Source of the DNA: Chloroflexota bacterium
GTDB lineage: Bacteria; Chloroflexota; Anaerolineae; VGOG01
Assembly: GCA_030611885.1 (NCBI GenBank)
Contig: JAUWOY010000027.1
Span: forward strand, 1-46,889
DNA length: 46,889 bases
Direction: 5' to 3'
Under the pieces are notes generated by a model. It was not told where the DNA came from and made no database searches. It saw only the letters and a program-made list of their open reading frames with translations. The translations under genes and the position numbers were made by a program. This document shows, piece after piece, positions 1 through 15,810 of this stretch. How positions within the stretch are numbered: position 1 is the stretch's first letter; every line of letters begins with the position of its first letter.

Positions 1-547
1 CACCCCAGACGCTGATTTCTTCAAGGGCATACTTGAGCATCAATTGGCTGATGCTATTGACGAAACAACCAACCACCATAAGTTGCAAGGCGGTGTTCAA
101 ACGAAGCCGCGTCTTGGCCTGTTCGTCCTCGTTGCGCTCCAATGAGATCAGCACCGCGCCTGCGACGACGACCCCCACGCCGATGTAGGTCAGTGTGTCG
201 AACCGTTCGCCCAGAAAGAGAAATCCCCATAAGGCGCTAAAGACCGGTGAAGTCTGGGCCAGGGCCACTACGACCGAAGCATCGTTGTAACCCAGGGCTG
301 CAAAGTAGAGCACAATATAGGCCAGGTACACAGCGCCGCTGAAAAAGGCGAGCAATGTGGCTCCCAAAGGCGCGGTGTGAACGTCTACTGTGAGCAGCAT
401 GACAACCGCCGAGATCATGCCGTATGCGCTCATGAAGAAGGAGTAGATTATCGGGTCGGGGATTTGTTTCTCGACAACGAACTTGTCAACGACGCTAACG
501 CCTCCGTTGAGCGCGGCAGCGATAAGCGCTAAGGTCAGCCAACCCAC
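1..547 (-). CDS. EamA/DMT-family membrane transporter (C-terminal part cut by the window edge)
   Basis: Translating the minus strand from a GTG at 547 gives 182 residues with no stop before the edge, so the 3' part is missing. The product is hydrophobic, with several membrane segments separated by short loops, and has the EamA-like stretch ALAQTSPVFSALWGFLFLGE followed by another helix (YIGVGVVVAGAVLISLE). That is typical of one half of a 10-TM drug/metabolite transporter. A GAGG Shine-Dalgarno lies six bases before the GTG, which favours it over an in-frame ATG at 583. It is co-directional with the arginine cluster upstream but separated from it by about 275 bp in which I see no gene or clear terminator. 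The substrate cannot be told from sequence. Confidence 0.8.
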   Translation of the reverse strand, partial: MGWLTLALIAAALNGGVSVVDKFVVEKQIPDPIIYSFFMSAYGMISAVVMLLTVDVHTAPLGATLLAFFSGAVYLAYIVLYFAALGYNDASVVVALAQTSPVFSALWGFLFLGERFDTLTYIGVGVVVAGAVLISLERNEDEQAKTRLRLNTALQLMVVGCFVNSISQLMLKYALEEISVWG

Positions 548-823
548 AAGTAACCTCGTTTCACAGTTTGTTCCTATGCACATCCCTCAATGCAAAACAA
601 AAAGCACAGCCTGTCCTGGCGAGATCGCTTTGCTGCGTCCTCACAGGAGCCACGTCTGTGCTTGCGTACATACCAAGATTCTCTTCCTCCCTGTGAACCA
701 GTATAAGGCTTTCAAGTCTTCAACTTATGCCACTTACAATGCCCTCTTTCGCAATAGGCTTAATGGCAGCATCCATTTGCCGAGATGTTGTTCACCGAAT
801 CTGATAGCACGGGCAGGTTAGAG

Positions 824-3800
824 TTATCTCCCAGATCGATCCCATGAGATCCGTTCTCGACTGAGGGGCATGGACATGCATCGGGGCCCGCCCCGTGCCC
901 GGGATAGCTCGCGTCCCGTGATTTCGATAGCATATTTCCGCCGGTCACGCCGGTAAGAATTATCTCTTGGAATAGAAGCCTCCATCGTCTCTAGGATGGC
1001 TTCTCCTAATTCAGTCAATTTCAATTCTTCATTTTCTACTTTTACTACGTCATGGGCGTGGCAGACTTGGTACCCCGCCTTTTCCAATTCCTGGAAGGTG
1101 CGATAATTCCGCTCATAGCCGATTACTACTCCAGGAGCAACGGCCAGAACATTTGCCCCATCACACAATTGTTCTCGATCTTGATAAAGGGGGTTATCCC
1201 CTCCGACAAAAATGGACTTCAGCCTGTAGTTCGGGGCACCTTCGTAATGCCTTATCGCTTCTTCAAGTTCTTTGACCAGCGAGTTGACTTCGTACGTCTT
1301 GATGCTTTTCAGTTCCTGGGTCTCTGGGTCTCGATCCGCTGTGAGACGAACAACCCGTACTTGCTCAATCCCTTCGGGCACAATCATAGGTTGATAGACG
1401 AGACATTCGTCCTCGCTGAGCATCGTAAAGATCGTGTCCAAGTGCATGGTTGAGCGTTGGGCGGGCATTAAGACGACAAAAATCTCTTCGATGCGAGGAT
1501 CATCATCTTTTTGTTTTTCAAAGAGTTGGGTTGCTAGTTCTTCAAGCATCTCCCGCGTAGTCCGCTCGCTGCATCCGATGGCGAGAATGTGGTCATGGAT
1601 GACAAGGATATCCCCTCCTTCAATGCGCTGAAGCTTGCCCCGCTCTTTGACCTTTTCCAGTTTTTTCCCTGCTTCCCCCTTTCCTCCTTTTATCTCGTTG
1701 GCTTTTTCAGGCCCCTTCTCAGCTGCTTCCTTTGCCTTTTGTATTTCGCTAAAAAAATCAAACCAGAGATCTTGCCTCTCGATGTTGTCCTGTTTCACCA
1801 GGGCCTGCAAAGCATAATGAAGCAGCAGCCCTTCCCGAAGCCGGGCCGGTTTCTGCATGTAACACACGATAGCATTGTCGCCCACCACAGCAGCTGGATC
1901 GCGCATAAAGAGTATATTAGGAATCGGTGTCAGCAAGAAGGGATCAGCATCGTCCAAAAAGAGGGCCGGATGCGATGAATCCGCGGGCACACCCTCAATG
2001 AGTGCCCGAGTCAATTCCTCTGCGCCCTGTTCCCAGCACTCCTTCAGACGGGCCTTCAAAGTCTCCCCATAACTTGGCAACCATTTCCCGCCCCGCTCCT
2101 TGACCGCTTCTCTTTGCAGGTCAACAACTTTATCAAGGACATCGTCCAAACGTTCAATATCTCTTAGAGCCCTGAGGACCAGATCCTCGATTTCATAAAC
2201 TTTTATACCCAACGCTGTCAATAGTTTCCAGAAGTCCCTGTGCTCTTTCTGGGCAGTTTTCAGATCCAAAATATCGTCATAGAGCAGGGCAGTCTTGTTC
2301 GTTGGTGTCAGGTAGGCGAGTTCCTGTCCTGGCCTGTGGAGCACGACCTGACGCAAACACCCGGTTTCTGAGTGAACATCCAATCTGATCTCTTTGGGAT
2401 CTGTCGCATTTGGTTCCGCCGGCCTCGGTTGTTCTGTTTCGGTTTCTTGTTGTGAGCTTTTGACGTGAACAGAAGAAAGTCTATCCTCCATATCACTTCG
2501 TCTTAGCGGTACGTCATCTCGTCTTATCGGCAAGACCAGACTGCGTGGGCCACCGTGCGCCCGCGACAGCTCCGAATCATCCAGGGTGATAACAATACGG
2601 GAATCAGACTCTACGCATTCCTCGACTGCAGTCTGCTCTGCGTCAAGGAAAGTCTCGGCTCTGATAATCTTGTATCCCCACTTGTCCTCTAGATATCTTA
2701 GGGTTTCTTGATTACGCTCAGAGGCAATTAACTTACCAGGCGCCAGAGCCAGCATATTAAGCGCCTGATTGTGCCACTCCCGCTCCTGCAAAATCCGTTT
2801 TTCAACAGTCACCTCTTCGTCGTGAGGTAGACCTACTCCAGCGCAGTAGCCAACATTCTGACAGTCATACTTCAGGCCTACCGATTCCATAGCTTCTTTC
2901 ATGCTGTCATAGGCTTTGACACAGATTTGGCCCTTGTCCAGCCACATCTTGAGCATGGTTAGCTGGGCACCGTACTCTTCCATGATGGACGGGTAGATCA
3001 TGTACTGATCTTTGCCCGCAATTGAGAAAAAAGTGTCAAGATGGTTTTTTTTGTCATCGGCGATAATCGCCACGAGAACAGTCCGGATTTTGCTCCGGCG
3101 TTCGAACAATTCCTTGACCAGCGTATCAATCGCTGCAGCACTGGCTCGGTGACCGCAGCCGATCAGGAGCGTATCTGAGGACAGGACAAAAATGTTACCG
3201 CCTTCCAGCGTGTAGTGCGGTCCCTGGGTGAAGCGAACGTAATTGGCCTCCAAGGTAACGTTGCTATCACCGCTGGCGATCTGGGTATTCATGCCTACAT
3301 ACTCTTTTCCGCCGATTGAGAGCCCGCCAGAGCTGGAGAGCTTGAAATTAGTTCCCTCCAGAGAAACGTGCTCAAACCCTATATGCCCGCGCACCATCTC
3401 TCGCTTTGTGAGGCGACTTTCGAAATCGCCCAACCAGCGCCAGGGGGCAATGCCTTCACGACAAAAACGAGAGTGGTGACTAAAAATGAGGTCAAAGAGC
3501 AAGATTTCGCGGGATCGTACAGCGTGGGCCATACTGCTCATAATGACTCCATCACCAACAACCGTCGCGCAATCGCGGACGAACATCAGGTTAGGAAGCG
3601 GTGGAAAAACGTAAATGTCCTGGCGTAGAAAGCGGGTCAACGACTCTCCCCTGGGTTCACCGCCGATCAGAACGTCAGCCAGCCCTTCTGGAGAATAATC
3701 ACTCAATTGCTTGCAATAGTCAGGTGAATATCCTTCCAACCGACTAACAAGTTCAACAAATTTCCTGCGCCCTTCATAGCCAATCAGATGCAATGTTTCA

Positions 3801-4027
3801 GCTAGTAAATCCTGGAAATAATAGACCACGATGCCGGCCTTTTTCAAGATTTGGACCAGGCAGTCGTGGTCTTTGGCCACTTCTTTCAGGTAAAGGATAT
3901 CATCAAAAAGCATACGCCCAAAGTTCCGGGGCGTGACCATCTCGATCTCCCGGCCGGGCGTATGCACAATGACCTCTCGCAAACGACCAATCTCCGACGT
4001 TACAGAAAGGGGGACGCCATACTTCAT
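824..4027 (-). CDS. Tandem (double-domain) arginine deiminase, N-terminal copy lacking the catalytic Cys
   Basis: 1067 residues, about 2.5 times the usual arginine deiminase (ADI, near 410). ADI converts L-arginine to citrulline and ammonia. Two complete ADI-like units lie head to tail, about 1-505 and 545-1067, joined by a Gln/Glu/Pro-rich linker. Copy 1 has FVRDCATVVGD (Asp152), LEGGN (Glu275), HLDT (His329, Asp331) and the C-terminal loop HGGPRSLVLP, where the nucleophile position is Ser496 (AGT codon). Copy 2 has FMRDPAAVVGD, IEGGD, HLDT (His862, Asp864) and GGPRCMSMP with Cys1050 (TGC), so it keeps the expected catalytic set. A Lys/Glu-rich insertion (about 762-798) precedes the EGGD motif in copy 2. 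The ATG at 4027 follows a GGGAGGG ribosome site; a TTG at 4042 is in frame but less likely. It starts 21 bases after the EF-Tu stop and closes the arginine cluster. I infer one catalytic half and one that may bind arginine or serve only as a scaffold. Confidence 0.88.
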   Translation of the reverse strand: MKYGVPLSVTSEIGRLREVIVHTPGREIEMVTPRNFGRMLFDDILYLKEVAKDHDCLVQILKKAGIVVYYFQDLLAETLHLIGYEGRRKFVELVSRLEGYSPDYCKQLSDYSPEGLADVLIGGEPRGESLTRFLRQDIYVFPPLPNLMFVRDCATVVGDGVIMSSMAHAVRSREILLFDLIFSHHSRFCREGIAPWRWLGDFESRLTKREMVRGHIGFEHVSLEGTNFKLSSSGGLSIGGKEYVGMNTQIASGDSNVTLEANYVRFTQGPHYTLEGGNIFVLSSDTLLIGCGHRASAAAIDTLVKELFERRSKIRTVLVAIIADDKKNHLDTFFSIAGKDQYMIYPSIMEEYGAQLTMLKMWLDKGQICVKAYDSMKEAMESVGLKYDCQNVGYCAGVGLPHDEEVTVEKRILQEREWHNQALNMLALAPGKLIASERNQETLRYLEDKWGYKIIRAETFLDAEQTAVEECVESDSRIVITLDDSELSRAHGGPRSLVLPIRRDDVPLRRSDMEDRLSSVHVKSSQQETETEQPRPAEPNATDPKEIRLDVHSETGCLRQVVLHRPGQELAYLTPTNKTALLYDDILDLKTAQKEHRDFWKLLTALGIKVYEIEDLVLRALRDIERLDDVLDKVVDLQREAVKERGGKWLPSYGETLKARLKECWEQGAEELTRALIEGVPADSSHPALFLDDADPFLLTPIPNILFMRDPAAVVGDNAIVCYMQKPARLREGLLLHYALQALVKQDNIERQDLWFDFFSEIQKAKEAAEKGPEKANEIKGGKGEAGKKLEKVKERGKLQRIEGGDILVIHDHILAIGCSERTTREMLEELATQLFEKQKDDDPRIEEIFVVLMPAQRSTMHLDTIFTMLSEDECLVYQPMIVPEGIEQVRVVRLTADRDPETQELKSIKTYEVNSLVKELEEAIRHYEGAPNYRLKSIFVGGDNPLYQDREQLCDGANVLAVAPGVVIGYERNYRTFQELEKAGYQVCHAHDVVKVENEELKLTELGEAILETMEASIPRDNSYRRDRRKYAIEITGRELSRARGGPRCMSMPLSRERISWDRSGR

Positions 4028-4048
4028 TGTGAGCCCTCCCAAGTGATT

Positions 4049-5257
4049 TTATTCAATGATCTCGGTGATAACCCCTGCACCGACTGTACGCCTCCCATCG
4101 CGGAAGGCAAACCGCAATCCCCGCCCCAGCGCAACTGGGCGGTGAAGTTCGATTTCCATTTCTACATTGTCGCCTGGCATCGCCATTGCTTGATCTTCTT
4201 GTAACTTGATCTGACCGGTAACATCCATGGTTCTAATATATAGCTGTGGGCGATATCCGGTAAAGAAAGGTTTATGACGCCCACCTTCCTCCTTGGTCAA
4301 GACATAGACTTCGGCCTTGCAACGAGAATGGGCCTTAATCGATCCCGGTTCAGCCAACACATGCCCACGTTGGACTTCACCCAGTTCCACACCACGCAAC
4401 AAGCACCCCACGTCGTCGCCGGCCTGGGCCTGCTTCATGTACTTGCCAAACATCTCGATACTAGTTACAACCACGGTTCTTGAGCGGTCACTCAATCCTA
4501 CAATCTCCACCGAATCTCCGACCGAAATGACACCTCGCTCGATTTTGCCGGCCACTACGACCCCCCGTCCCTTGATGCTATACTCTTCGTCGACGGGCAT
4601 CAGGAAAGGTTTATCAATATCTCGTTGAGGCAAGGGAATATAGCTGTCTACGGTTTTCATAAGTTCGATAATCGGCCGGCAATATGGACAATCATCCTTT
4701 CCACAGCCACAATCACGGGCTAGTAGTGCGCTGCCCCGAATCATCGGAACGTCGTCACCCGGATATCCGTACTGACTCAAGAGTTCGGAGAGTTCCAACT
4801 CCACCAACTCGAGAAGCTCTTCATCGTCTACCAGTTCTACTTTGTTCAAGAACACAACGATCGCAGGAACGTCAATTTGACGAGCCAAGATGATGTGCTC
4901 ACGTGTCTGAAGCATCGGACCATGCGTGGCGTCCACGACCAAGATAGCGCCGTCCATCTGGGCAGCACCAGTGATCATGTTCTTAATATAGTCCACGTGA
5001 CCTGGACAATCAATGTGAGAATAGTGCCGGGTTTCTGTTTCGTATTCAATATGGGATGCAGGCACAGTGACAATCCTTAATGCGTCTCGGACGACACCGC
5101 CTTTGGCAATATCCGCGTACGCTTTTTCTTCGGTCAAGCCACGCGCGGCTAGAACCCGTGTGATGGCCGCCGTAAGCATGGTTTTCCCATGGGCAACATG
5201 GCCGATTGTCCCGATGTTTACGTGTGGTTTAGTTCGTTCGTATACTTGTTTCGACAT
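4049..5257 (-). CDS. tuf: Divergent elongation factor Tu paralogue with remodelled amino-acid pocket
   Basis: 402 residues, the normal EF-Tu length, collinear through the GTPase domain and domains 2 and 3. EF-Tu-GTP delivers aminoacyl-tRNA to the ribosome. It keeps DCPGH with the catalytic His, the Thr of switch I (RIVTV for RGITI), and YRPQ and VTG in domain 3. Unusual are GHVAHGKTM for GHVDHGKTT, NKVE for the G4 motif NKCD, and a Cys cluster ([11 protein letters not shown], bases about 4670-4720) before the domain 1-2 junction. In E. coli numbering the amino-acid pocket reads E215D, D216E, F218Y, T228A and N273D, with only H66 kept; R262 is Gly, and E390-G391 (Thermus numbering) are Asp-Arg. 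The ATG at 5257 has a GGGAGAG site. It lies 25 bases after tRNA-Arg(TCG) and 21 before the deiminase, so co-transcription is likely. It may be a specialised paralogue, an elfamycin-resistant copy or a decaying duplicate; the uninterrupted full-length frame argues against decay. Confidence 0.9.
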
Positions 5258-5282
5258 AACTCTCCCTTCACATTGTGGTTAG

Positions 5283-5356
5283 TGCGCCTGGAGGGACTCG
5301 AACCCCCAACCCACGGTTTCGAAGACCGGCGCTCTGTCCAATTGAGCTACAGGCGC
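5283..5356 (-). tRNA. tRNA-Arg(TCG)
   Basis: A 74-base cloverleaf with acceptor GCGCCTG/CAGGCGC, D arm GCTC/GAGC, T loop TTCGAGT and anticodon loop CTTCGAA, giving anticodon TCG (codon CGA, possibly CGG). Discriminator A; D-loop GGA (A20) and C35 fit arginine identity elements. The outermost anticodon-stem pair (C27-U43) is mismatched. CCA is not encoded. It sits 34 bases after argS and 25 before tuf, inside the protein-coding part of the cluster. Confidence 0.93.
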
Positions 5357-5390
5357 ACATTAGCTGAAGATCACATAAGTGGCCTGGGGT

Positions 5391-7823
5391 TTACATCACT
5401 TCTGGTGCTTCGATCCCGAGGAGTGCGAGTCCGTTTGCTAAGGTCTGCCTGGCAGCTCGAACCAGTTGCAGGCGGGCGGCCCGCACTCCATCTGGGACAT
5501 CTCCTCGAAGTACATCACAATTCTGGTAGAAATCGGTGAAAAGGCTGGCCAATTCAAATACGTATGTAGATACCAAGTGTGGTTTGTAACGAGTTGCGGC
5601 CCGCAACACTACGTTGGGAAAGTCCGCAATTTTCTCGATCAAGTTGATCTCCGCTAGTAACTCTGCCTTGGGCCGAGATGTGATCGGTACACCTAGATGG
5701 CTGTAGTCTGGTTCCAGCCCTGAAATGGCTCCGGCCTTTTCCAAAACACGGCAAGCTCGGGCATGTGCATACTGAATATATGGTGCGGAACGGCCTTCAA
5801 AACTTAGAGCCTCTTCTAGATCAAACATGATGACTTTATTATCATCAACACTTATCATCGAGTACTTCATGGCCCCCAAAGCGACTGCCCGCGCAATCCC
5901 CCGTTTCTGTGCATCTTCCAAATCAGGGTTTTTGGCTTCAACTATAGCCAATGCGCGAGACACCGCCATTTCTACAAAATCCTCAAAAGGTACCACATTC
6001 CCTGCCCGAGAAGACATCGTTCCGGTAGGATCTGTCACAATCTCGTATGCCAAATGATAACAGTTCTTGGCTTGCTCAAAGCCCCACAGTTCCAGAACCT
6101 TGAAAACCTGCTTGAAATAGAATGCTTGTCTAACATCCACAACATAAATGGAGCGATCGACCTCATAGTCTTCAAATTTGCGCTTTGCCAGGGCCAAGTC
6201 CTTCGTTGAGTATAGAGAGGTTCCGTCGCTGCGCAAAATCAGAAGCGTGCGGTATTCGCCATCTGTCACCTCTCCGTGTTTGTCTCTCTTTTCGAGACCC
6301 AACAATTTATCAATGTGAACTAACACAGGTCCATCTGGTCGTAGGTCCTCGGCAATGCCTGTTTCCATCATGTCGTCAACGATTTCTTTGCCTTCTTCCT
6401 CGACCTCGCTCTCGTAGAACCAAACTTCGAACTCCGCTCCAAGAAAGTCATAGATTTCCCGGAACTCTTCCATGCTCCATTCTTTGGTCTTCTCCCAAAG
6501 CGCCACCAGCTCCGGATCCTTGGCATCCCAGCGCAGGAAAAGTTCTTTGATTTCTGCGTCCCACTGATCTATGTCGGGCCACCATTCCATTCGGTTATCA
6601 AGCGTTTCACAGAGTTCGAGTAACTCAGATAACGTCTGCCTTTGTTCAGTATCCCAAGCGTGACCATCCCCAGAAGAGCCAGAAGAAGAGATTCCCTCTT
6701 GAATCCAGTTGCTAACTTCTGGCCACAATGTTGGCACATGTTCTCCAACCGCGCCTGCCACGGCGTCTTGAACCCCAATATGCTGCATAACATACAAAGA
6801 TGCTTCGAGCGATCTTCCAGGCAACAGGTTTTCCAAGAGTTGACAGTACAAATCAGCCCCAGCCCCCCCGACAGTAATGGTAAAGCTAAGGTTGTCCCCT
6901 CTGTCCACAACCGCGCCGGATTTCTTTTTCTGGGCCATACTTTCCATACTACTCACAACCAGAGCACTGGATCCCTCTTCCTGGGCCAAGTTTTCAAGCC
7001 CTGATTTGATCTCCTCTACAACTCCTTGCCAGCCAGGGTCTAACTTGTATAGTAGCTGCTCTTTGACAGGACTCTCAAGGTGCTTGTCGACCCAGTTATG
7101 CAGTCTCTCTAGGAAAGAGGGAAGTCGAATCAGATCGTGGATCAAGCCTACCACATGATCCCGAAGCTCAACGCGCTGGTCAGCCTCGGCATAGACCTGG
7201 CCCAACCATTTGCCCCATCCCTCCACCGGCTCCTGCCCTTCATGAAATCTGGTGTAACACCACAAGCACTTGATAACGTGCATCCCAATGTCGCCAAGGT
7301 AATTCGCCGTAATAGTATCGAACCCTGCAAAATCCAGGATCAAAGCCAGAGAGTGGCCCAAACAGACATTGCGGAGGTGGCCCACATGAAAGGCTTTGTG
7401 CGTGTTGGGCTGAGAATACTCTACCATAATGCGTTCGGGCTTTGCGGCACCGCGTCCATAGTTTCGTCCCTCAGCCAGTACACTCTTAGCCAACTGTGAG
7501 GCTAGCGCTGGCACATCGAAATAGAAGTTGACATACCCTCCTTGGGCTCCAACACGCCCTGCTATTTCTACAGATTGCAACGCTTTGGCAATCTCTTCCG
7601 CAATTTCCGGAGCTCGTTCACGCGCAATACGAGATTTTGTCCTTTTGTCTAGATCCAGTCCCTCAAGTTCTTGAGCCGCCAACCTATAAGCAATAGATGT
7701 GGCCAAACCCCAGGCACCGAGAAAGGGAATATTTCGCCATTCGGGAGAGATCGGCTCATATCCAAGAGATTTAACAACGCGATCGAGCTGTTCAGTTAAG
7801 TAGTTTTTCTGAGTGGTTAACAT
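5391..7823 (-). CDS. argS: Arginyl-tRNA synthetase with a large insertion
   Basis: Class I arginyl-tRNA synthetase that charges tRNA-Arg with L-arginine. It has 810 residues against roughly 550-600 in ordinary bacterial ArgRS. The N-terminal additional domain covers about 1-110. The substrate motif SQPNTHKAFHVGHLRN (137-152) holds the HIGH equivalent HVGH at 146-149; the arginine-pocket segment LYSTKD is at 537-542, VDVRQAFYFKQVF at 562-574 and the KMSK-like MSSRAGN at 603-609. The C-terminal anticodon-binding domain is normal (PYIQYAHARA near 681). About 200 extra residues, roughly 215-420, split the catalytic domain after GDIGMHVIK. They include a Ser/Gly-rich stretch and no motif I recognise. 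The ATG at 7823 has AGAGG six bases upstream; the longer frame to 7937 lacks this support. It lies between four tRNA-Arg genes upstream and a fifth 34 bases downstream. Catalytic residues look intact, so I expect an active enzyme. Confidence 0.93.
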   Translation of the reverse strand: MLTTQKNYLTEQLDRVVKSLGYEPISPEWRNIPFLGAWGLATSIAYRLAAQELEGLDLDKRTKSRIARERAPEIAEEIAKALQSVEIAGRVGAQGGYVNFYFDVPALASQLAKSVLAEGRNYGRGAAKPERIMVEYSQPNTHKAFHVGHLRNVCLGHSLALILDFAGFDTITANYLGDIGMHVIKCLWCYTRFHEGQEPVEGWGKWLGQVYAEADQRVELRDHVVGLIHDLIRLPSFLERLHNWVDKHLESPVKEQLLYKLDPGWQGVVEEIKSGLENLAQEEGSSALVVSSMESMAQKKKSGAVVDRGDNLSFTITVGGAGADLYCQLLENLLPGRSLEASLYVMQHIGVQDAVAGAVGEHVPTLWPEVSNWIQEGISSSGSSGDGHAWDTEQRQTLSELLELCETLDNRMEWWPDIDQWDAEIKELFLRWDAKDPELVALWEKTKEWSMEEFREIYDFLGAEFEVWFYESEVEEEGKEIVDDMMETGIAEDLRPDGPVLVHIDKLLGLEKRDKHGEVTDGEYRTLLILRSDGTSLYSTKDLALAKRKFEDYEVDRSIYVVDVRQAFYFKQVFKVLELWGFEQAKNCYHLAYEIVTDPTGTMSSRAGNVVPFEDFVEMAVSRALAIVEAKNPDLEDAQKRGIARAVALGAMKYSMISVDDNKVIMFDLEEALSFEGRSAPYIQYAHARACRVLEKAGAISGLEPDYSHLGVPITSRPKAELLAEINLIEKIADFPNVVLRAATRYKPHLVSTYVFELASLFTDFYQNCDVLRGDVPDGVRAARLQLVRAARQTLANGLALLGIEAPEVM

Positions 7824-8050
7824 GATTGACCTCTTTGAGTCAAGAACTGGTTTGCAGCTTCCGAGCTTTCGGGGCCATCCAGTTTCCTGGAAACGCCGGT
7901 TGAGTAGGCTCGGAGCACAGCGAAAAGCCGTATCCAAGTTACGCGGAACCCCATCCAGACTTGCCTGCTTAATTAGATGCGCCTACAACTACTCAGTCAG
8001 CGCTGGCTCGCCTCCAGGCTGAGAACTGAATGTCCCTGCTAATCTTTTAG

Positions 8051-8124
8051 TGCGCCCGACAGGATTCGAACCTGCGACCTCAGCGTCCGCAGCGCTGCGC
8101 TCTGATCCCCTGAGCTACGGGCGC
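8051..8124 (-). tRNA. tRNA-Arg(GCG)
   Basis: A 74-base cloverleaf: acceptor GCGCCCG/CGGGCGC, perfect anticodon stem CAGCG/CGCTG, loop CTGCGGA giving anticodon GCG (codons CGC and CGU), T loop TTCGAAT, discriminator A. Most bacteria read this box with an ACG anticodon whose A34 is deaminated to inosine by TadA, so a G34 arginine tRNA is unusual. It is the last of four tandem tRNA-Arg genes and lies 227 bases before argS. CCA is not encoded. Confidence 0.92.
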
Positions 8125-8155
8125 GCAATGACAAAGATAACTGATCCACTAATGG

Positions 8156-8228
8156 TGCGCCTGACAGGAATCGAACCTGCAACCTAGGGTTTAGGAGACC
8201 CTTGCTCTGTCCATTGAGCTACAGGCGC
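8156..8228 (-). tRNA. tRNA-Arg(CCT)
   Basis: A 73-base cloverleaf: acceptor GCGCCTG/CAGGCGC, anticodon stem AGGGT/ACCCT, loop CTCCTAA giving anticodon CCT (codon AGG), T loop TTCGATT, discriminator A. It is separated from its neighbours by 31 and 43 bases, consistent with one processed polycistronic transcript. Confidence 0.94.
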
Positions 8229-8271
8229 ACGATTGGTACAGAGCATCTGGGTAGATTCATTGTGTTGTGAG

Positions 8272-8344
8272 TGCGCCTGGCGGGACTCGAACCCGCAGCC
8301 TACGATTTAGAAGACCGGTGCTCTGTCCATTGAGCTACAGGCGC
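8272..8344 (-). tRNA. tRNA-Arg(TCT)
   Basis: A 73-base cloverleaf: acceptor GCGCCTG/CAGGCGC, loop CTTCTAA giving anticodon TCT (codon AGA, possibly AGG), T arm GCGGG/CCCGC, discriminator A. The anticodon stem CCGGT/ATCGT has one mismatch and one G-U pair. Its acceptor stem is the same as those of the CCT and TCG isoacceptors, suggesting local duplication. Confidence 0.93.
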
Positions 8345-8364
8345 ATCTACGATGTTGAAACTAA

Positions 8365-8436
8365 TACCCCCAGGGCGACTCGAACGCCCGCACATGGCTT
8401 CGGAGGCCACTGCTCTATCCACTGAGCTATGGGGGC
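8365..8436 (-). tRNA. tRNA-Arg(CCG)
   Basis: A 72-base cloverleaf: acceptor GCCCCCA/TGGGGGT (G-U at the end pair), anticodon stem GTGGC/GCCAT, loop CTCCGAA giving anticodon CCG (codon CGG), T loop TTCGAGT, discriminator A. It is the first gene of the cluster, starting about ten bases downstream of a -10-like element. Confidence 0.93.
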
Positions 8437-8445
8437 TTTAGCAGT

Positions 8446-8474
8446 ATTTTGCCATAAAACGGCTTCCCTGTCAA
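8446..8474 (-). promoter_or_regulatory. Promoter abutting the tRNA-Arg cluster
   Basis: On the minus strand a consensus -35 TTGACA (8474-8469) is followed by exactly 17 bases and CAAAAT (8451-8446, four of six matches to TATAAT). It ends nine bases before the 5' end of tRNA-Arg(CCG), an ideal place to drive the cluster. Confidence 0.7.
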
Positions 8475-8514
8475 CCGCTCTCCCATTGTGGACCTACGAC
8501 AACGCCTTGGCGAG

Positions 8515-8543
8515 ATTATAGCATAAACGGGATGCAAAGTCAA
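8515..8543 (-). promoter_or_regulatory. Strong sigma-70-like promoter upstream of the arginine cluster
   Basis: On the minus strand TTGACT (8543-8538), a 17-base spacer and TATAAT (8520-8515), with TGC before the -10 (extended -10). It lies just after the stop of the duplicated porB tail and points at the tRNA-Arg genes. A diverged copy is at 10394-10421. Confidence 0.72.
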
Positions 8544-8569
8544 GGAGCGGGCGAACTGTACATTTTACT

Positions 8570-8832
8570 TCACTGACCCACCCTGGCCACCAACCTCTCC
8601 CACTCCCGATCCACGTTCTCCTGGATAAACTCGATGTCCTCCTCGGTGAGGTGGCTGAAGCGGCCCTGAAGCTGGAGGTACTCCCGCACGGGCACATCCC
8701 GCTTGGGCCAGACGTTGATGGTCCACTTCTCCCCATTCTCCACCTCGTAGAGGGGGAAGACCTTGCTCTGCACAGCCAAACGCGAGATGCGGATGGAGTA
8801 GGCGGGCTCCATCTTCCAGCCGGGCGGACAGC
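8570..8832 (-). pseudogene. Duplicated 3' fragment of porB
   Basis: The minus strand encodes about 85 residues nearly identical to the C-terminus of PorB, from CPPGWKMEPAYSIRISRLAV to the end (VARVGQ here, VARAGQ in the full gene), ending with the same TGA. The match begins abruptly in mid-gene, with no start codon, thiamine-binding or Cys motifs. It extends past the stop into the promoter-like sequence. The differences include conservative substitutions (EN for AN, LQ for LK), so the copy is not recent or was acquired from a relative. Confidence 0.85.
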
Positions 8833-8896
8833 CTGGTATATTCACGCAGCCAACTTGCGCCCCATGTTACGCCCCATTGATAGCAATTGCGCCCCA

Positions 8897-10297
8897 TTAA
8901 GGTGCTCTATAGCGTGTCCCCCGGCCTGTTCCCTCGATCTTGACCCAGCCCGTCTTGACCAAAGCCTGCAAATCTCTGAACGCAGTGTTTTTGGACACAT
9001 TGAACAACCGCCGATAGTCTGCGTTGCCCAACTCTTGGCCTTCATTGACCATCAACCGCAAGGCCTCGATCTGCCGCTCATTCAGCCCCAGGGCGCGCAG
9101 ATCGGTCACGCCTTCTTCCGGGATCAAATCCAGGATGCGGTCGCCGGGGCCGTAAAACGTAACAGCGAAGAAGTCGTCCAAATCCTCCAATTGTGGCTCC
9201 GCCAGCCCATGCTCGCGCATCAGACGGCGCATTCGTGCGATACCGGTGCCCCATTTCTCAATGTAAAAGATGTCGTACAGGTAGTTGGCGATGAGGGGAT
9301 TGCGCAGGACGTGCTTGCGTTCGATGTTGGCCAATGTCACGCCCGGCGGCAGCCCGCCGGGGCTGTTGATCTCAATGCGATCGGCAAAGACCATAATGCG
9401 CACACTGGCCCCTTCGATGCGATAGTCACGGTGACAGACGGCGTTGCAGACCGCCTCGCGGACGGCTTCGTAGGGATACTCGGTCACCTCGCGGCGGCGA
9501 AAGCCAACCACTCTGGCAGCCAGGCGGGTGTTGCGGCGGATGAACTGTTCGGCCGCGTCAATCAATTCCGGCAACGTGCCACTCAAGTCGGCCCGGTCAA
9601 TGAAATGGGTCGTGGACGTGCCCTGAAAGCGGGCCACCCGCACCTGGCTGTGGGAAATCCACCCCTGTGGGTCTCGCCCAAAGAAGAGGATCCCAGCGCG
9701 GGTGGGAATGAGCCGGCCCGCCCGTTCAACCACCGCGCCGAGTCCGGTCAGCAGGTCTGGCAATGGGCCGCCCGGGGCGGAGATGCCACGCTTTTTGGCC
9801 CGTTGCGCCAGGTACCAGCGGATGCGCTCCTCGTCCAGGTCGGTGTAGCGCGCTCCGACGACTGGCTGGCGGCCAAATGCAGCATGGCTGCGTGTAAGCA
9901 ATAACCGCTCATACTCGTCCCGCTTGAGTTGCACGTCGGCCGCGCCAACCCGTTTATACGCACGTCCCCTGGCTAGATGAGGGCGATTGTCGCTGGGGGC
10001 AACGCGAACGACGATGACCATACGTCCTTCCACTGGGACGTACTCTACCGACGGATACACGACCGGGTCGGTTGTGCCGGTGATGCGGCTCACGATGCGC
10101 TCTTTGGTGGTCTGACTTACCTCAACACCGATGATCTCGCCCGAATTGCGCACGCCAAAAAGGAGCACTCCACCGTCGGTATTGGCAAAGGCAACCGCAG
10201 TGCGCGTGGCGGTATCCAATTCGGCCAGCGAACGCTTGAACTCTAATTGCTGTCCTTCGCCCTGGCTGACGAGTCGTAAAACGTCATTTGCATTCAT
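8897..10297 (-). CDS. AlbA_2 (Schlafen-like) / HATPase_c_4 DNA-binding transcriptional regulator
   Basis: 466 residues. The N-terminal 120 residues match the AlbA_2 fold (EGQQLEFKRSL, then AFANTDGGVLLFGV). The middle has the GHKL-type ATPase segment usual in these proteins (AVCHRDYRIEGASV, INSPGGLPPGVT, LRNPLIANYLYD, EKWGTGI). The C-terminal 80 residues look like a winged helix (LNERQIEALRLM to DYRRLFNVSKNTAFRDLQAL). Family members are often labelled RecG-like or putative DNA-binding proteins and occur in accessory regions. A GGGGA stretch precedes the ATG at 10297, and a promoter-like element lies 100 bases further upstream. The gene sits exactly between two copies of the porB 3' end, so it probably arrived or was rearranged as a unit. 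I do not know its target. Confidence 0.85.
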   Translation of the reverse strand: MNANDVLRLVSQGEGQQLEFKRSLAELDTATRTAVAFANTDGGVLLFGVRNSGEIIGVEVSQTTKERIVSRITGTTDPVVYPSVEYVPVEGRMVIVVRVAPSDNRPHLARGRAYKRVGAADVQLKRDEYERLLLTRSHAAFGRQPVVGARYTDLDEERIRWYLAQRAKKRGISAPGGPLPDLLTGLGAVVERAGRLIPTRAGILFFGRDPQGWISHSQVRVARFQGTSTTHFIDRADLSGTLPELIDAAEQFIRRNTRLAARVVGFRRREVTEYPYEAVREAVCNAVCHRDYRIEGASVRIMVFADRIEINSPGGLPPGVTLANIERKHVLRNPLIANYLYDIFYIEKWGTGIARMRRLMREHGLAEPQLEDLDDFFAVTFYGPGDRILDLIPEEGVTDLRALGLNERQIEALRLMVNEGQELGNADYRRLFNVSKNTAFRDLQALVKTGWVKIEGTGRGTRYRAP

Positions 10298-10314
10298 GAG
10301 TTTCCCCGCTTAAC

Positions 10315-10395
10315 CTACGCCTCACTCTCCTCCTGCTTACTCTTCCTCGGTTTGATCTGCACCATCGTCGCCCGCGCCACATCATCGTCCCCAAT
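10315..10395 (-). pseudogene. Possible tail of a lost gene
   Basis: The minus strand reads GDDDVARATMVQIKPRKSKQ plus six residues to a TAG at 10317-10315 in an open frame. This basic, Ser/Glu-rich tail resembles a protein C-terminus, but no start, ribosome site or body is present. It lies between the duplicated porB end and the AlbA_2 gene, and may be debris of the insertion that carried that gene. Weak evidence. Confidence 0.25.
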
Positions 10396-10421
10396 TGTAG
10401 CATAAGTGGGTGCAAAGTCAA
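10394..10421 (-). promoter_or_regulatory. Promoter-like element after porB
   Basis: On the minus strand TTGACT, a 16-base spacer and TACAAT preceded by TGC. It is the diverged sister of the element at 8515-8543 and points at the AlbA_2 gene. Confidence 0.5.
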
Positions 10422-10711
10422 AGAAGCGGACGCACTGTACCTTCCACTTCACTGACCCGCCCTCGCCACCAACCTCTCCCACTCCCGATCCACGTTCGCT
10501 TGGATGAACTCGATGTCCTCTTCGGTGAGGTGACTGAAGCGGCCCTGAAGCTTGAGGTACTCCCGCACCGGCACCTCCCGCTTGGGCCAGACGTTGATCG
10601 TATACTCCTCCCCGTTCTCCACCTCGTAGAGGGGGAAGACCTTGCTCTGCACGGCCAAACGCGAGATGCGGATGGAGTAGGCAGGCTCCATCTTCCAGCC
10701 AGGCGGACAGG
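10399..10711. repeat. Long direct repeat, partner of 8517-8831
   Basis: About 315 bases are shared in the same orientation with 8517-8831 at roughly 88-90% identity by eye. The shared block covers the last 85 codons of porB, the stop and about 50 bases of promoter-like sequence. The two copies flank the AlbA_2 gene. Confidence 0.85.
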
Positions 10712-11327
10712 GGGAGAGCATGTGGATGAACTTGGCCCCGCGGATCTCTTTGGCTTTCTGGAACTTGCGCACCAGGTCCTCTGGATAGGCGACGGTGGCG
10801 GTGGCAGCGTAGGGGATGCGATGGGCGGCCATGATGGCCACGATGTCTTTCTTAGGCCTATCCTTGGGATGCCGCACGGGGGTGGTGGTCGTCCAGGCCC
10901 CCCAGGGCGTGGCGGAGGAGCGCTGGATGCCGGTGTTCATGTAGGCCTCGTTATCGTAGCAGGCGTAGATGAAGTCCTCGTTCCGCTCCACGGCGGCGGA
11001 GAGGGCCTGGAGGCCGATGTCGAAGGTGCCGCCGTCGCCAGCCCAGGTCAGCACTGTGGTCTCCGTATCCCCCTGTATCTCCAGGGCGGCCTTGATCCCC
11101 GCTGCCGCGGAGCCCCCCGTCTCGAAGGCGGTGTGCATCAAGGGGATCTTCACCGAAGAGTAGGGGAAGGCCCCGGCGATGATGGACCAGCAGCAAGCAG
11201 GGATAACGAGGATCGTCTCCTCGCCCAGGGCTTTCAAGGCCAGGCGCATGGAGAGCGACCCCCCACAGCCTGGACAGGCCAGATGGCCAGAAAGCAGTAG
11301 TTCCTCATCGGGTATAGCGTAACTCAT
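10449..11327 (-). CDS. porB: Pyruvate:ferredoxin oxidoreductase, beta subunit
   Basis: 292 residues. It binds thiamine diphosphate and, with PorA, PorG and an iron-sulfur subunit, oxidises pyruvate to acetyl-CoA, CO2 and reduced ferredoxin in the anaerobic cytosol. The N-terminal CPGCGGS motif, the thiamine-pyrophosphate motif GDGGTFDIGLQAL and the following DNEAYMNTG are typical of the family, as is the length. The promoter for the downstream AlbA_2 gene begins within about 30 bases of its stop. It is separated from porA by a short repeat block, and the order porG, GltD-like subunit, porA, porB indicates one operon. A related 2-oxoacid substrate (for example 2-oxoisovalerate) cannot be excluded from sequence alone. 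Confidence 0.93.
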   Translation of the reverse strand: MSYAIPDEELLLSGHLACPGCGGSLSMRLALKALGEETILVIPACCWSIIAGAFPYSSVKIPLMHTAFETGGSAAAGIKAALEIQGDTETTVLTWAGDGGTFDIGLQALSAAVERNEDFIYACYDNEAYMNTGIQRSSATPWGAWTTTTPVRHPKDRPKKDIVAIMAAHRIPYAATATVAYPEDLVRKFQKAKEIRGAKFIHMLSPCPPGWKMEPAYSIRISRLAVQSKVFPLYEVENGEEYTINVWPKREVPVREYLKLQGRFSHLTEEDIEFIQANVDREWERLVARAGQ

Positions 11328-11342
11328 GATTAACCTCCATAA

Positions 11343-11412
11343 TCAAATCCCAATGACCAATGACCAAATCCCAATAAATCATTGGTCATTGGTCATTGGT
11401 CATTTGTCATTT
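11343..11412. repeat. Short-period repeat block with dyad symmetry
   Basis: Between porA and porB, units of the type AATGACC occur on the left and their complement GGTCATT on the right, so the block can form a long imperfect hairpin. It runs into the end of porA, whose stop lies within it. Confidence 0.75.
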
Positions 11413-12561
11413 CTTAACCTCTCTCCAGATAATCTCCGTCTCAGGCACATCGTGCCCAAAGGTGTACTCGGCGATGCCTCGGATTGACGCGGGGGTGACG
11501 TCCCTGCCGCCCAGGCCGATGATGAAGCCAAAAATGGGCGGCCGATGTGCCCCGTTGTAGAGGGCCGATTTGATCTCCTCGGCGAAGATGCCGCCGTGGC
11601 CAAAGGAGATGTTGCGATCTATGACCGCCACTTTGCGAGCCCCTGCCAGCGCCTCTCGAACGTCCTCGGCGGGGAAGGGGCGGAACATGCGCATTTTGAG
11701 CAGCCCTATTTTGTGGCCCTCCTCTCGCAGCTCGTCCACCACCACCCTGGCCGTGCTGGTGATGGTGGCCGAGGTCACCAGAACTACCTCGGCGTCTTCC
11801 ATAAAATACTTCTCCACCAGGCCATAGCTGCGCCCGAAGACCTCCTTGAACTCCTCATCAACCTGGCGAGCCACCTCCACCGCCTCCTCCATGGCCCGCT
11901 GGATCTTGTAGCGCAGCTCCATGTAATGGGCAGGCGTTACCAGAGCACCGAAGGCGTGGGGATCGCTCGTGTCGAGCTTGTATTGAGCATTATAGGGAGG
12001 CAGATAGCTATCCACCAACTCCTGGTCTGGGATGTCCACCGGCTCCTGGGTATGGGAGAGGACGAAGGCGTCCAGCACCAGCATGGTGGGCAGAAGTACC
12101 CGCTCGGCGATTTTGACAGCCTGGATGACGCTGTCTAGCACTTCCTGATTGCTCTCGCAGTAGAACTGCAGCCACCCTGTGTCCCGCTGAGCCAGACTGT
12201 CGGTCTGCTCGGTCCAGATTGACCAGCCCGGCCCCATGGCCCGGTTCACGTTGGCCATGACGATGGGGAGTCTGGCTCCAGCCGCCCAGTGGAGCATCTC
12301 ATGCATCAGGGCCAAGCCGTGGCCCGACGTGGCGGTGAAAGCCCGCGCCCCAGCCGATGCGGCCCCGATGCAGGCGGCCATAGCCGAGTGCTCACTTTCC
12401 ACTTTGATGAACTTGGCGTCCAAAAGCCCATTGGCGCAGAACTCCGACAGTATCTCTACGATCTGGGTCTGCGGAGTGATGGGATAGGCAGCGATAACCT
12501 GGGCTCTGGCCAGCCTTGCTCCGTAGGAGACGGCGTGGTTGCCCATGATCACTTTTTCCAT
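11407..12561 (-). CDS. porA: Pyruvate:ferredoxin oxidoreductase, alpha subunit
   Basis: 384 residues from the ATG at 12561, which follows a strong GAGGAGGAG site. It has the PYR domain with AAYPITPQTQIVEIL near the N-terminus, the conserved VESEHSAM (thiamine-activating Glu region) and TATSGHGLALMHEM, then the transketolase C-terminal domain with GHKIGLLKMRMFRPFP and VIDRNISFGHGG. The length is normal for archaeal-type split PorA. It overlaps the upstream GltD-like gene by 13 bases, indicating translational coupling. It forms the catalytic core with PorB. Confidence 0.94.
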   Translation of the reverse strand: MEKVIMGNHAVSYGARLARAQVIAAYPITPQTQIVEILSEFCANGLLDAKFIKVESEHSAMAACIGAASAGARAFTATSGHGLALMHEMLHWAAGARLPIVMANVNRAMGPGWSIWTEQTDSLAQRDTGWLQFYCESNQEVLDSVIQAVKIAERVLLPTMLVLDAFVLSHTQEPVDIPDQELVDSYLPPYNAQYKLDTSDPHAFGALVTPAHYMELRYKIQRAMEEAVEVARQVDEEFKEVFGRSYGLVEKYFMEDAEVVLVTSATITSTARVVVDELREEGHKIGLLKMRMFRPFPAEDVREALAGARKVAVIDRNISFGHGGIFAEEIKSALYNGAHRPPIFGFIIGLGGRDVTPASIRGIAEYTFGHDVPETEIIWREVKK

Positions 12562-14330: not shown

Positions 14331-14340
14331 CGTTCCTCCT

Positions 14341-14400
14341 TCTGGGTATTGGATATTGGGTATTGGATATTCCAATCTCTAATCTCCAATATCTAATATC
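14341..14400. repeat. Short-period repeat with dyad symmetry
   Basis: Units TATTGGATATTGG on the left and CCAATATCTAATA on the right form an imperfect palindrome. It fills the gap between the GltD-like gene and porG and contains the porG stop codon. Confidence 0.75.
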
Positions 14401-14941
14401 TAACCTCCAAATATGCCTCTCTGGTGGCGGCCACGTTCTCCTCTGGTTTGATAGGCACAGACTCGCGCACAGCCTCGGCGAGGGCCTCCAGGCCCACTAT
14501 GCCCGTGGCCCTGGCAAAGGCTCCCAGGATGGCCGTGTTGACGATGGGCGCGCTCTTAGGCCCCAGCTTGTACTTGATGGCGATGGAGCTGGCGTCAACG
14601 GTGGCCACCCGGTACTTCGCTGGCAGATCGAAGGTAGCGGGATCCTGCTCGCTGTTGATGAGAATCCAGCCGCCTTCTTTCAGGCCGGCGGTAACATCCA
14701 CCGCTTCCAGCAGAGTCGGATCCAGCACCACGATGTGATCGGGCTCGTAGATCTGGCACCGGATTCGCACGGGCCGCTCGTCAATGCGGGTGAAAGCCAC
14801 GACTGGCGCGCCGCGCCGTTCCACGCCGAAGGCCGGGAACGATTGCACGTACCGGCCTTCTTTAAACACAGCAGCCGCCAGCACCTTGGAAGCGATAACC
14901 GCTCCTTGGCCGCCGCGGCCGTGTATCCTGATCTCGATCAT
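14393..14941 (-). CDS. porG: Pyruvate:ferredoxin oxidoreductase, gamma subunit
   Basis: 182 residues, the normal PorG length. It begins [21 protein letters not shown], the family signature, followed by [14 protein letters not shown] and later [13 protein letters not shown]. It is the structural gamma component of split PFOR that completes the alpha/beta catalytic unit. The ATG at 14941 follows an AAGGAGGAAACGC site. It is the first gene of the por operon in transcription order. Its last codons and TAG stop fall inside a short-period repeat, so its C-terminus seems to have been set by repeat insertion. Confidence 0.92.
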
Positions 14942-14989
14942 GCGTTTCCTCCTTCTCCGTTGATGGAAATCTCTGGCATGTTACAACCT

Positions 14990-15036
14990 CCTTGTTGATT
15001 TATTAATTTGTGGATTTGCTGATTTGTTGATTTATG
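14990..15036. repeat. Short-period repeat between porG and the PIN toxin gene
   Basis: Units of GATTTGTTGATTTAT type with period 7-8. The TAA stop of the PIN gene (15034-15032) lies inside it. Confidence 0.7.
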
Positions 15037-15475
15037 AACCTGTCGTCAAGCCATCAGCTTCCAGCACGAATCCATATTGTTCGGCTGCTTCTACGAAGTG
15101 ATGATCGAAGCCAAAGGCATATTGACAACCCATTATCTCCATCACGATTAGGCTAGCGCAGTCCACGATTCCCCAAGTTTTGTCCTCATAGCGCCAGAAG
15201 ATCTCCACAGCCTTGCCTTCTATATCGGGCGTCACATCTTCCCACCACACGAGCTCTTTATCAGTAAGCACTTCGTACAAACTCAGTGCCGGGGCATACC
15301 CAACGCGACTTTTGAGAAAAGATAAAGCTTCGTAAGCGACCCAATTGGTTACCATCAACAAGACATCGCTATCCAGCAAACGCTGATAAATAGCTTTGGC
15401 CTCCTGATGGTACTTATCCTTACGGTACACTATGCTTATCCAAGCAGAGGCATCAACGAAAACGCGCTCTTTCAT
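15032..15475 (-). CDS. PIN-domain ribonuclease toxin (VapC-like)
   Basis: 147 residues. The PIN-domain acidic residues are visible: FVDASAW (Asp8) near the N-terminus, the Glu in VAYEAL, and Asp in TWGIVDCAS and FGFDHHF. VapC-type proteins are Mg-dependent endoribonucleases, often cutting tRNA or rRNA, and are neutralised by a partner encoded just upstream. Its ATG overlaps the stop of the upstream gene as TAATG, the usual coupling in toxin-antitoxin pairs. Being near a tRNA cluster does not by itself imply a shared target. Confidence 0.88.
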   Translation of the reverse strand: MKERVFVDASAWISIVYRKDKYHQEAKAIYQRLLDSDVLLMVTNWVAYEALSFLKSRVGYAPALSLYEVLTDKELVWWEDVTPDIEGKAVEIFWRYEDKTWGIVDCASLIVMEIMGCQYAFGFDHHFVEAAEQYGFVLEADGLTTGS

Positions 15476-15810
15476 TAGCTCTCAGCCCCGTAAAGATAAT
15501 CGCGAAAGTGCTCTGAAACATCGGATGGCATGTTGCTATCTGTGATAATGCCAGCCAATTGAAGTGCTTCCGCCTTGCTTTCGGGCGTGATACACCGCTT
15601 TGATTCCCATCTAGCAAGTTCTGCACGCCTCCGTTCGGCCAATTCACGTAGAGCCGGCGAGAGGAGTTCGCTCCTGATGCTCGGCCTTTCGACAGTGAGA
15701 AGCTCTATTGCCCTGACCACAACTGCAGAGATGTCCACCCCTTCTGTCGTCAAGGCATCCAATCTCTTCACTACCTCGTCCGGCAATTCCATCTGAATTA
15801 CCCTTAACAT
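15475..15810 (-). CDS. Antitoxin partner of the PIN toxin
   Basis: 111 residues from the ATG at 15810, which has GGAGGTG at good spacing; an in-frame ATG at 15816 is too close to that site. The N-terminus (LRVIQMELPDEVVKRLDAL) resembles a ribbon-helix-helix DNA-binding segment; the remainder is charged and helical (LAERRRAELARWES), as expected for a toxin-wrapping tail. Its assignment as antitoxin rests on size, position and the TAATG coupling with the PIN gene. It probably autoregulates the cassette. Confidence 0.75.
   Translation of the reverse strand: MLRVIQMELPDEVVKRLDALTTEGVDISAVVVRAIELLTVERPSIRSELLSPALRELAERRRAELARWESKRCITPESKAEALQLAGIITDSNMPSDVSEHFRDYLYGAES

Follow-up and report, generated by a model that had tools for sequence, protein, structure and literature searches.

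Bulk EF-Tu is regarded as a generalist, and factors devoted to a single residue have been described for selenocysteine and for nematode mitochondrial serine, the latter with tRNAs that lack the D arm. Here we describe an operon on contig JAUWOY010000027.1 of a Chloroflexota bacterium (assembly GCA_030611885.1), the whole of which, 46,889 bases, was analysed and is called the window below. Five tRNA-Arg genes, an arginyl-tRNA synthetase (ArgRS) gene, a variant tuf gene and a gene for a tandem arginine deiminase follow one another in this operon (Table 1). Our reading, held in even balance with doubt, is that they form an arginine-dedicated charging and delivery line that runs parallel to the housekeeping one.

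SelB, as described in PMC4150793, is an EF-Tu-like factor with a dedicated tRNA that differs from EF-Tu by H67Y, E216D, D217R and N274R. The operon resembles this system in having an EF-Tu-like factor re-specified at positions 216, 217 and 274 together with tRNAs of its own. In SelB the pocket has turned basic (D217R, N274R) and H67 is replaced, whereas the variant EF-Tu shares only Asp216, carries Glu, Lys, Asp, Ala or Gln at 217 across its family, has an acidic Asp274 and keeps H67. The variant also ends like EF-Tu, at 402 residues, without the C-terminal mRNA-binding extension of SelB, and it would, by prediction, serve a standard amino acid encoded by sense codons. By analogy, the two factors may be mirror images, SelB having made the opposite charge change towards a basic pocket for anionic selenocysteine.

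Nematode mitochondrial EF-Tu2 is likewise an EF-Tu paralogue for one standard amino acid, serine, likely through its aminoacyl pocket (PMC4013460). EF-Tu2 as presented there has a C-terminal extension and serves mitochondrial tRNAs without a D arm, whereas the tRNAs described here are ordinary cloverleafs, encoded in one bacterial operon with a synthetase and a deiminase. The engineered factors EF-Sep and EF-Sel are changed at the same positions as the variant EF-Tu: H67, E216, D217, F219, T229 and N274 were randomized by Park et al. to make EF-Sep, and F219Y is identical in EF-Sep (PMC6386890). According to that account these are laboratory selections for anionic residues; the variant EF-Tu, in contrast, is natural and carries N274D. 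Streptomyces EF-Tu3 (actEF-Tu) is another divergent second bacterial EF-Tu, but it is condition-specific and antibiotic-resistant, and its description in the passages seen of PMC4342817 mentions no accompanying tRNAs or synthetase. CtdA, a deacylase of canavanyl-tRNA-Arg, is also a bacterial accessory function directed at tRNA-Arg, but is described in PMC10018355 as a standalone B3/4 editing protein, and Pfam finds no such domain in the three operon proteins. Finally, the tandem protein exceeds the arcA cut-off of TIGR01078 and so resembles the arginine deiminase pathway (arcABC), from which it differs in having two halves, one without the catalytic Cys, and in its place among translation genes.

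The open full-text literature in PMC, which leaves subscription papers uncovered, contained no locus with this operon content and no dedicated EF-Tu with tRNA-Arg. Within the same scope, literature on a second arginyl-tRNA synthetase or on amino-acid-specific elongation factors yielded no such locus either; what was returned, as far as the retrieved text goes, was mostly on a 'serine-specific elongation factor', plus one giant-virus paper with a 'duplicated arginyl-tRNA synthetase'.

A second arginine set beside the housekeeping genes

ARAGORN, Rfam, Pfam and TIGR scans bore out the gene content and order of the original prediction, which had been made from the sequence without database searches; the three protein genes were scanned as their longest open frames. 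The minus-strand order is promoter, tRNA-Arg CCG, TCT, CCT and GCG, leader, argS, tRNA-Arg TCG, tuf and tandem deiminase. Gaps calculated from the coordinates (20, 42, 28, 226, 34, 24 and 21 nucleotides (nt) along the operon) agree with the predicted ones to within a base or two. ARAGORN found five tRNA genes in the window, all for arginine and all on the minus strand; as predicted, there is none for another amino acid.

A tRNA search of the whole genome gave 52 places, 51 of them above the gathering score, and all 52 were typed with ARAGORN. Ten are tRNA-Arg genes, namely the five of the operon and five on five other contigs with the same five anticodons. Several other anticodons are present twice (Asn GTT, Gly GCC, Ala GGC, Ala CGC, Met CAT and Leu TAG, one TAG copy being below the cut-off), and arginine is the only multi-anticodon amino acid for which every anticodon found in the genome is doubled. 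A separate argS of 555 residues lies on contig 74. Contig 18 holds a canonical tuf distinct from that of the operon, and contigs 4, 14 and 26 have tuf fragments at their ends. The operon genes are thus not the only argS, the main tuf or the only tRNA-Arg genes of this genome. Since these separate copies exist, the operon is a duplicate line, and a relocation of housekeeping genes, which would have undone the original prediction, is ruled out.

The five operon tRNAs score 64.6–73.4 bits in Rfam (gathering score 29). Compared with its host counterpart, the CCG tRNA is 92% identical, and the other four are 74–83% identical to theirs. Four of the five share the acceptor GCGCCYG..CRGGCGC and have G-C at 3-70, and all five have A73, whereas the housekeeping tRNA-Arg have C-G at 3-70 in every case and G73 in three of five. 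The anticodon loops are the same in four of the five operon–housekeeping pairs. Codon supplementation is unsupported because the operon anticodons are the host's five; moreover, Arg codon use is ordinary in the operon genes (6.8%, compared with 7.5% for ten further genes of the window).

The variant EF-Tu and its amino-acid pocket

With 593.5 bits against TIGR00485 (cut-off 522.4), the variant belongs to EF-Tu. The set used for comparison comprised the best 120 of 8000 protein matches, the window's own protein and the genome's housekeeping EF-Tu. The switch-I motif TVP is present in 24 of these proteins and absent from the other 98, which are 97 listed matches and the genome's own EF-Tu and represent the sequences nearest to the query by score rather than a random sample. 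In a tree of 52 rows (all 24 variants, ten switch-I lookalikes and 18 others picked by hand), a branch supported at 100/100 separated the 24 TVP proteins from the rest. Consistent with this separation, a profile made from 19 variants gave full-length variants at least 727 bits and the others at most 706, while a truncated variant (P0016) scored 685.8.

Six of the 402 window positions are fixed in 24/24 variants and found in 0/98 others: Pro66, Asp109, Asp223, Tyr226, Ala236 and Asp282. Pro66 is part of the defining TVP motif. Asp223, Tyr226, Ala236 and Asp282 correspond, in E. coli numbering with Met1, to E216D, F219Y, T229A and N274D, so that the general-purpose aminoacyl pocket (E216, D217, F219, T229, N274) carries these four replacements in all 24 variants and none of them in the 98. 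Four of the six fixed positions thus fall among the six residues randomized for EF-Sep (hypergeometric probability 2e-7, falling to 7e-8 when the defining motif is left out; both values are descriptive only). Position 217 is variable, with Glu in 10, Lys in 10, Asp in 2, and Ala and Gln in one each. The variant EF-Tu looks like a working GTPase, as judged from its residues, because T62, H85, N136 and K137 are kept in 24/24 and H67 is kept as well. Members of the window's clade carry GHVAHGKT or GHIAHGKT, and the window EF-Tu has Glu for Asp139.

Each operon protein had been predicted to depart from its family norm. This holds for the pocket of EF-Tu and for the N-terminal half of the deiminase. 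The unusual switch I of EF-Tu is not unique and was rejected as the key oddity, since IAKGG..R also occurs beside an otherwise ordinary pocket in ten of the 98 other EF-Tu. Five of these ten (P0100, P0101, P0119, P0122 and P0127) combine this switch-I type with N274A, and three of the five are on contigs of 0.49–1.7 Mb.

Eleven variants constitute a second group (P0018, P0019, P0021, P0025, P0026, P0029, P0031, P0048, P0052, P0075 and P0106), with Lys at 217 in ten and Gln in P0025, and with a different domain II stretch (YYIKGRGTV.AS-like in most). This subgroup possibly serves another amino acid. A structure model of the window EF-Tu (predicted local distance difference test (pLDDT) 83.8, predicted template modelling score (pTM) 0.63) matched solved EF-Tu with a template modelling score of about 0.5 and a root mean square deviation of about 8–12 Å, the high deviation probably coming from the domain orientation in the model; it adds nothing beyond the fold.

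The ArgRS and the tandem deiminase

The operon ArgRS scores 387 bits against TIGR00456 (cut-off 261.65) and contains the catalytic and anticodon-binding domains PF00750 and PF05746, which identifies it as an ArgRS. It is 29% identical to the 555-residue housekeeping enzyme and resembles a 717–738-residue type annotated in Sphaerobacter and Thermomicrobium, the nearest named relatives among the matches listed. E135, N140, H146, Y538 and D542, which we take to bind arginine, are invariant in 20/20 aligned ArgRS, the housekeeping one included; four of them (E135, N140, Y538, D542) presumably correspond to yeast E148, N153, Y347 and D351. The Pfam scan found no editing domain. ATG 7823, which gives 810 residues as in the relative P0129, is more likely to be the start than TTG 7937. 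The protein (5391–7823) also matches phrog_15344, a phage family with 592 positions and no assigned function, at 315 bits; phages carry an ArgRS-like family.

Seven proteins, including the window's own, make up the tandem deiminase family among 7994 candidates scored. The N-terminal half has Ser496 and His491 in 7/7, where the C-terminal half has Cys and Arg (HGGPRS versus RGGPRC, with RGGARC in a single protein). Cys1050 (7/7), H862, D864 and the F-RD, EGGD and MHLDT segments are intact in the C-terminal half; the N-terminal half keeps H329 and D331. On these motifs, whose catalytic roles we assume from solved enzymes, the N-terminal half is predicted to be non-catalytic and the C-terminal half active. 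Because the dead half is conserved in the family, it was probably kept for binding, and our guess is that it is an arginine sensor. A lysine-rich insertion in the C-terminal half varies in length among relatives. Citrulline from the deiminase could be used further in the cell, since the genome contains argH and a carbamate kinase homologue (356.6 bits, just under the curated cut-off of 358.25). The only other deiminase-family match listed in this genome, G000:C79:8176-8544, is weak (22.8 bits, just at the Pfam cut-off). A structure model of the tandem protein was poor (mean pLDDT 63, pTM 0.48) and was not used.

Linkage and distribution in other genomes

Contigs of equal recorded size point to linkage of the same genes elsewhere. 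Deiminase P0002, EF-Tu P0009 and ArgRS P0129, which are 68–89% identical to the operon proteins, share a 124,956-base contig by size. EF-Tu and ArgRS are paired on contigs of 26,712 bases (P0010 with P0130) and 24,721 bases (P0020 with P0132), and deiminase P0006 is paired with ArgRS P0131 on one of 8,990 bases; the ArgRS relatives were taken from the best 120 of 6820 matches. Within the EF-Tu subgroup of the window, P0020 (66% identity) and P0022 branch off first, support for the remaining eleven being weak (85/57). The link between variant EF-Tu and ArgRS looks old because P0020, a member of this first split, is size-matched to an ArgRS. The five linked ArgRS were not one group in a tree of 51 rows picked by hand (two changes), in which the housekeeping row is very long and the root unsure.

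The distribution is sporadic among the relatives compared. Variant tuf is absent from two genomes of the same family, G400 (79% complete) and G401 (94% complete), and among the three family genomes searched only the bacterium's own has a deiminase match. Both relatives have porA and porB collinear with the window at 84–89% DNA identity. After porB, as read from translations, G400 has an MntR-like regulator and an FeoB-like transporter, and G401 has a PHP-domain gene, dnaA and one tRNA-Arg(CCT). This last tRNA is 98.7% identical to the housekeeping CCT tRNA of our genome and 75% to that of the operon. The site of the module is variable, and acquisition is the probable origin, with loss in the two relatives as the alternative.

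Wider searches also returned little beyond the source genome. The tandem deiminase was found only there among 400 genomes of the phylum, as was the variant EF-Tu, by its profile, among 396 genomes of the class, 400 of the phylum (overlapping samples) and three of the order. A DNA pattern for the tandem deiminase gave 60 matches in 84,980 GTDB r220 species and 10 in viral contigs, none confirmed. A DNA pattern for the EF-Tu switch I gave no match in GTDB r220 genomes or in viral contigs; this pattern is restricted to Leu or Phe ahead of TVP and to Ala or Ser behind it, and the window's own gene, P0008–P0010 and P0029 therefore escape it. Both scans may omit records very near the window's genome. 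Deiminase matches in phage (13) and plasmid (408) records were all below 60% identity, those listed (5 and 20) being at 25.8–30.5%. Full-length EF-Tu matches among those listed (20 of 58 for phages, 5 of 1400 for plasmids) reached at most 60.9%; over all plasmid records, EF-Tu-like places of unspecified length stood at 60–80% in 16 and at 80–90% in one, the latter outside the listed matches.

Proposed function and alternative explanations

We propose that the operon ArgRS would charge the private tRNAs with arginine and that the variant EF-Tu would carry the arginyl-tRNA to the ribosome. E216D and T229A may make room in the pocket and N274D may add negative charge, and this larger, more acidic pocket would favour the cationic side chain of arginine. 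The deiminase would set the free arginine level or remove compounds that resemble arginine, and its dead half would be a likely sensor of arginine. The purpose is the least certain part. We prefer a bypass that would sustain the incorporation of arginine, or its accuracy, while the housekeeping route suffers from starvation or from a poison such as an arginine antimetabolite; tolerance of such a compound would give every operon part a task. Because canavanine is less basic than arginine and the EF-Tu pocket is acidic, the pocket could sort the two at delivery. At the charging step, the ArgRS of a canavanine-living Pseudomonas is reported to discriminate only 12.9-fold against canavanine (PMC10018355). 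A self-contained line for charging and delivering arginine had been the core of the original prediction, and the complete second copy and the family-wide change of the EF-Tu pocket support it; that support does not extend to the purposes offered with it.

More broadly, the operon would belong to a natural bacterial EF-Tu family dedicated to a standard amino acid, a mirror image of SelB with an acidic pocket. It would here form a complete, transplantable arginine branch parallel to the host's, and the subgroup with Lys217 would then represent a sister line with another specificity. We hold this wider view tentatively, a little short of even. If it is true, one standard amino acid can have its own lane to the ribosome. 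The variant EF-Tu makes cargo selection by EF-Tu testable, and the synthetase, five tRNAs and elongation factor, probably co-evolved, are natural parts for orthogonal translation. Should the purpose be tolerance of an arginine antimetabolite, translation would protect itself in a manner not met in the open PMC literature searched.

Several points weigh against the proposed arginine line. The bypass idea is limited in that a housekeeping line that stays active would go on delivering tRNA charged with an analogue. The T-stems give the operon tRNAs no privacy towards the variant EF-Tu: pairs 49-65, 50-64 and 51-63 show no systematic difference from the housekeeping tRNAs in the five pairs, and the T-stem was dropped as a private signal. 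A further point against is the closeness of tRNA-Arg(CCG) to its host copy. The second EF-Tu subgroup (11/24), with Lys or Gln at 217, has a less acidic pocket and no member linked to argS, which speaks against an arginine role for the whole family. Linkage elsewhere was deduced from the recorded size of the longest contig and not from DNA read; among the rows listed, a size match is missing for 20 of 23 further EF-Tu variants and for four of six further deiminases, many of them on short contigs.

An unlikely alternative, built from the same parts, makes tolerance of one arginine-directed poison the sole function: the deiminase would destroy the analogue, the ArgRS would avoid charging it and the EF-Tu pocket would refuse analogue-charged tRNA. 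Every part fits such a cassette, as do its sporadic distribution, the modest discrimination by the Pseudomonas enzyme and an EamA-family transporter gene 240 nt downstream on the same strand. However, Pfam detects no editing domain in the ArgRS, PADLOC defence models gave no match for deiminase, EF-Tu or ArgRS, and the housekeeping tRNAs would still be mischarged.

We consider it improbable that the operon is an arginine rationing or energy switch, in which the dead half senses arginine, the deiminase degrades it for ATP through carbamate kinase when it is plentiful, and the private line supplies translation when it is scarce. The carbamate kinase homologue and argH, the conserved dead half and the presence of a single, weak further deiminase-family match in the genome agree with this idea. 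It would leave the remodelled EF-Tu pocket and the duplicate tRNAs unexplained, and no arcB, arcC or arcD was noticed among the translated open reading frames of the window, which were read by eye and not all searched by family.

Immunity to a colicin D-type toxin that cleaves tRNA-Arg, by means of resistant tRNAs, was among the purposes first suggested, and we now think it very improbable. The full tRNA-Arg set is doubled and its acceptor stems differ (3-70 in four of five, and A73 in all five, as opposed to two of the housekeeping five). However, with four of the five anticodon loops the same as in the host, a nuclease of the anticodon loop would cut both sets, which weakens the suggestion; moreover, ArgRS, EF-Tu and deiminase would be superfluous. 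The loop argument does not bear on a nuclease of the acceptor stem.

Similarly small is the probability that the contig is chimeric or misbinned and the operon belongs to another organism. The source bin (3.45 Mb, 93% complete, the window being contig 37) is 5.6% contaminated and in 108 contigs, and the operon joins its surroundings at a 300-nt near-repeat with a shift in guanine plus cytosine content (GC): the operon protein genes have 50–51%, the por genes 60–63% and the remainder of the window 57.5%. The repeat copies are 11% apart over 300 nt, however, which makes a misassembly there unlikely, and the same protein set occurs on the independent 124,956-base contig; furthermore, given the altered EF-Tu pocket, the cluster would be unusual in any host.

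Least probable of all is the insertion of citrulline or another arginine-derived residue, with the deiminase acting on arginyl-tRNA and the variant EF-Tu selecting the product as in the SelA/SelB system: the formal parallel (an altered-pocket factor, its own tRNAs, a residue-modifying enzyme) and the lysine-rich insertion would suit it, but the more acidic pocket of the window subgroup fits arginine rather than the neutral citrulline, the tRNAs carry host anticodons for all six sense codons of Arg, so that insertion would be proteome-wide, and the operon genes use Arg codons at an ordinary rate.

Layout of the locus and neighbouring genes

Table 1. Features of the arginine operon and its upstream junction, with positions in the window. 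Pocket residues are in E. coli EF-Tu numbering.
Feature	Positions	Strand	Remarks
Window	1..46889		46,889 bases
Operon	8543..824	-	promoter to deiminase end
Copy of porB 3' end and downstream promoter-like region	8515..8814	-	89% identical to 10394-10693; directly before operon
Promoter-like site TTGACT-17-TATAAT	8515..8543	-	11/12 consensus, TG before -10; pattern match only
Second promoter-like site TTGACA-17-CAAAAT	8446..8474	-	10/12; just upstream of first tRNA; pattern match only
tRNA-Arg(CCG)	8365..8436	-	92% identical to housekeeping copy
tRNA-Arg(TCT)	8271..8344	-	acceptor GCGCCTG..CAGGCGC, A73
tRNA-Arg(CCT)	8153..8228	-	acceptor GCGCCTG..CAGGCGC, A73, CCA encoded
tRNA-Arg(GCG)	8050..8124	-	acceptor GCGCCCG..CGGGCGC, A73
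argS leader, 226 nt	7824..8049	-	no significant fold, no Rfam match
argS, 810 residues	5391..7823	-	PF00750 and PF05746, TIGR00456
tRNA-Arg(TCG)	5282..5356	-	acceptor GCGCCTG..CAGGCGC, A73
Variant tuf, 402 residues	4049..5257	-	pocket H67, D216, E217, Y219, A229, D274
Asp216 codon	4589..4591	-	Glu in 98/98 other EF-Tu
Tyr219 codon	4580..4582	-	Phe in 98/98 other EF-Tu
Ala229 codon	4550..4552	-	Thr in 98/98 other EF-Tu
Asp274 codon	4412..4414	-	Asn in 93, Ala in 5 of 98 other EF-Tu
Tandem arginine deiminase, 1067 residues (ATG 4027)	824..4027	-	TIGR01078 508.7 bits, above arcA cut-off
N-terminal deiminase half, residues about 1-510	2498..4027	-	Ser496 (codon 2540-2542) at nucleophile position; predicted non-catalytic
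C-terminal deiminase half, residues about 545-1067	824..2395	-	nucleophile Cys1050 (codon 878-880); predicted active

The strong promoters that had been predicted were found as one near-consensus and one weaker site, both by pattern match. Positions 400–10500 contain 16 promoter-like sites, against 6.6 ± 2.7 in shuffled sequence. The argS leader was considered as an RNA element and dropped, as its fold was not significant (z -0.48) and the Rfam scan gave no match.

Both members of the near-repeat pair, 8515–8814 and 10394–10693, include a TTGACT..TAYAAT site. Over 8565–8831, in its coding part, the truncated porB copy is 92.5% identical to the end of the genome's own porB, 92.9% to porB of G400 and 88.0% to that of G401. 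Derivation from a relative such as G400 was dropped, as the first two values give no source; duplication within the own genome is equally possible.

The EamA-family transporter gene (PF00892, 59.4 bits) occupies positions 2–583 on the minus strand, is cut by the contig end and lies in a stretch of 52.8% GC. Between the intact porB and its truncated copy, downstream of a promoter-like site at 10421–10394, lies a minus-strand gene (8897–10297) with SLFN_AlbA_2 and HATPase_c_4 domains, which gave partial PADLOC matches to pAgo-associated models.

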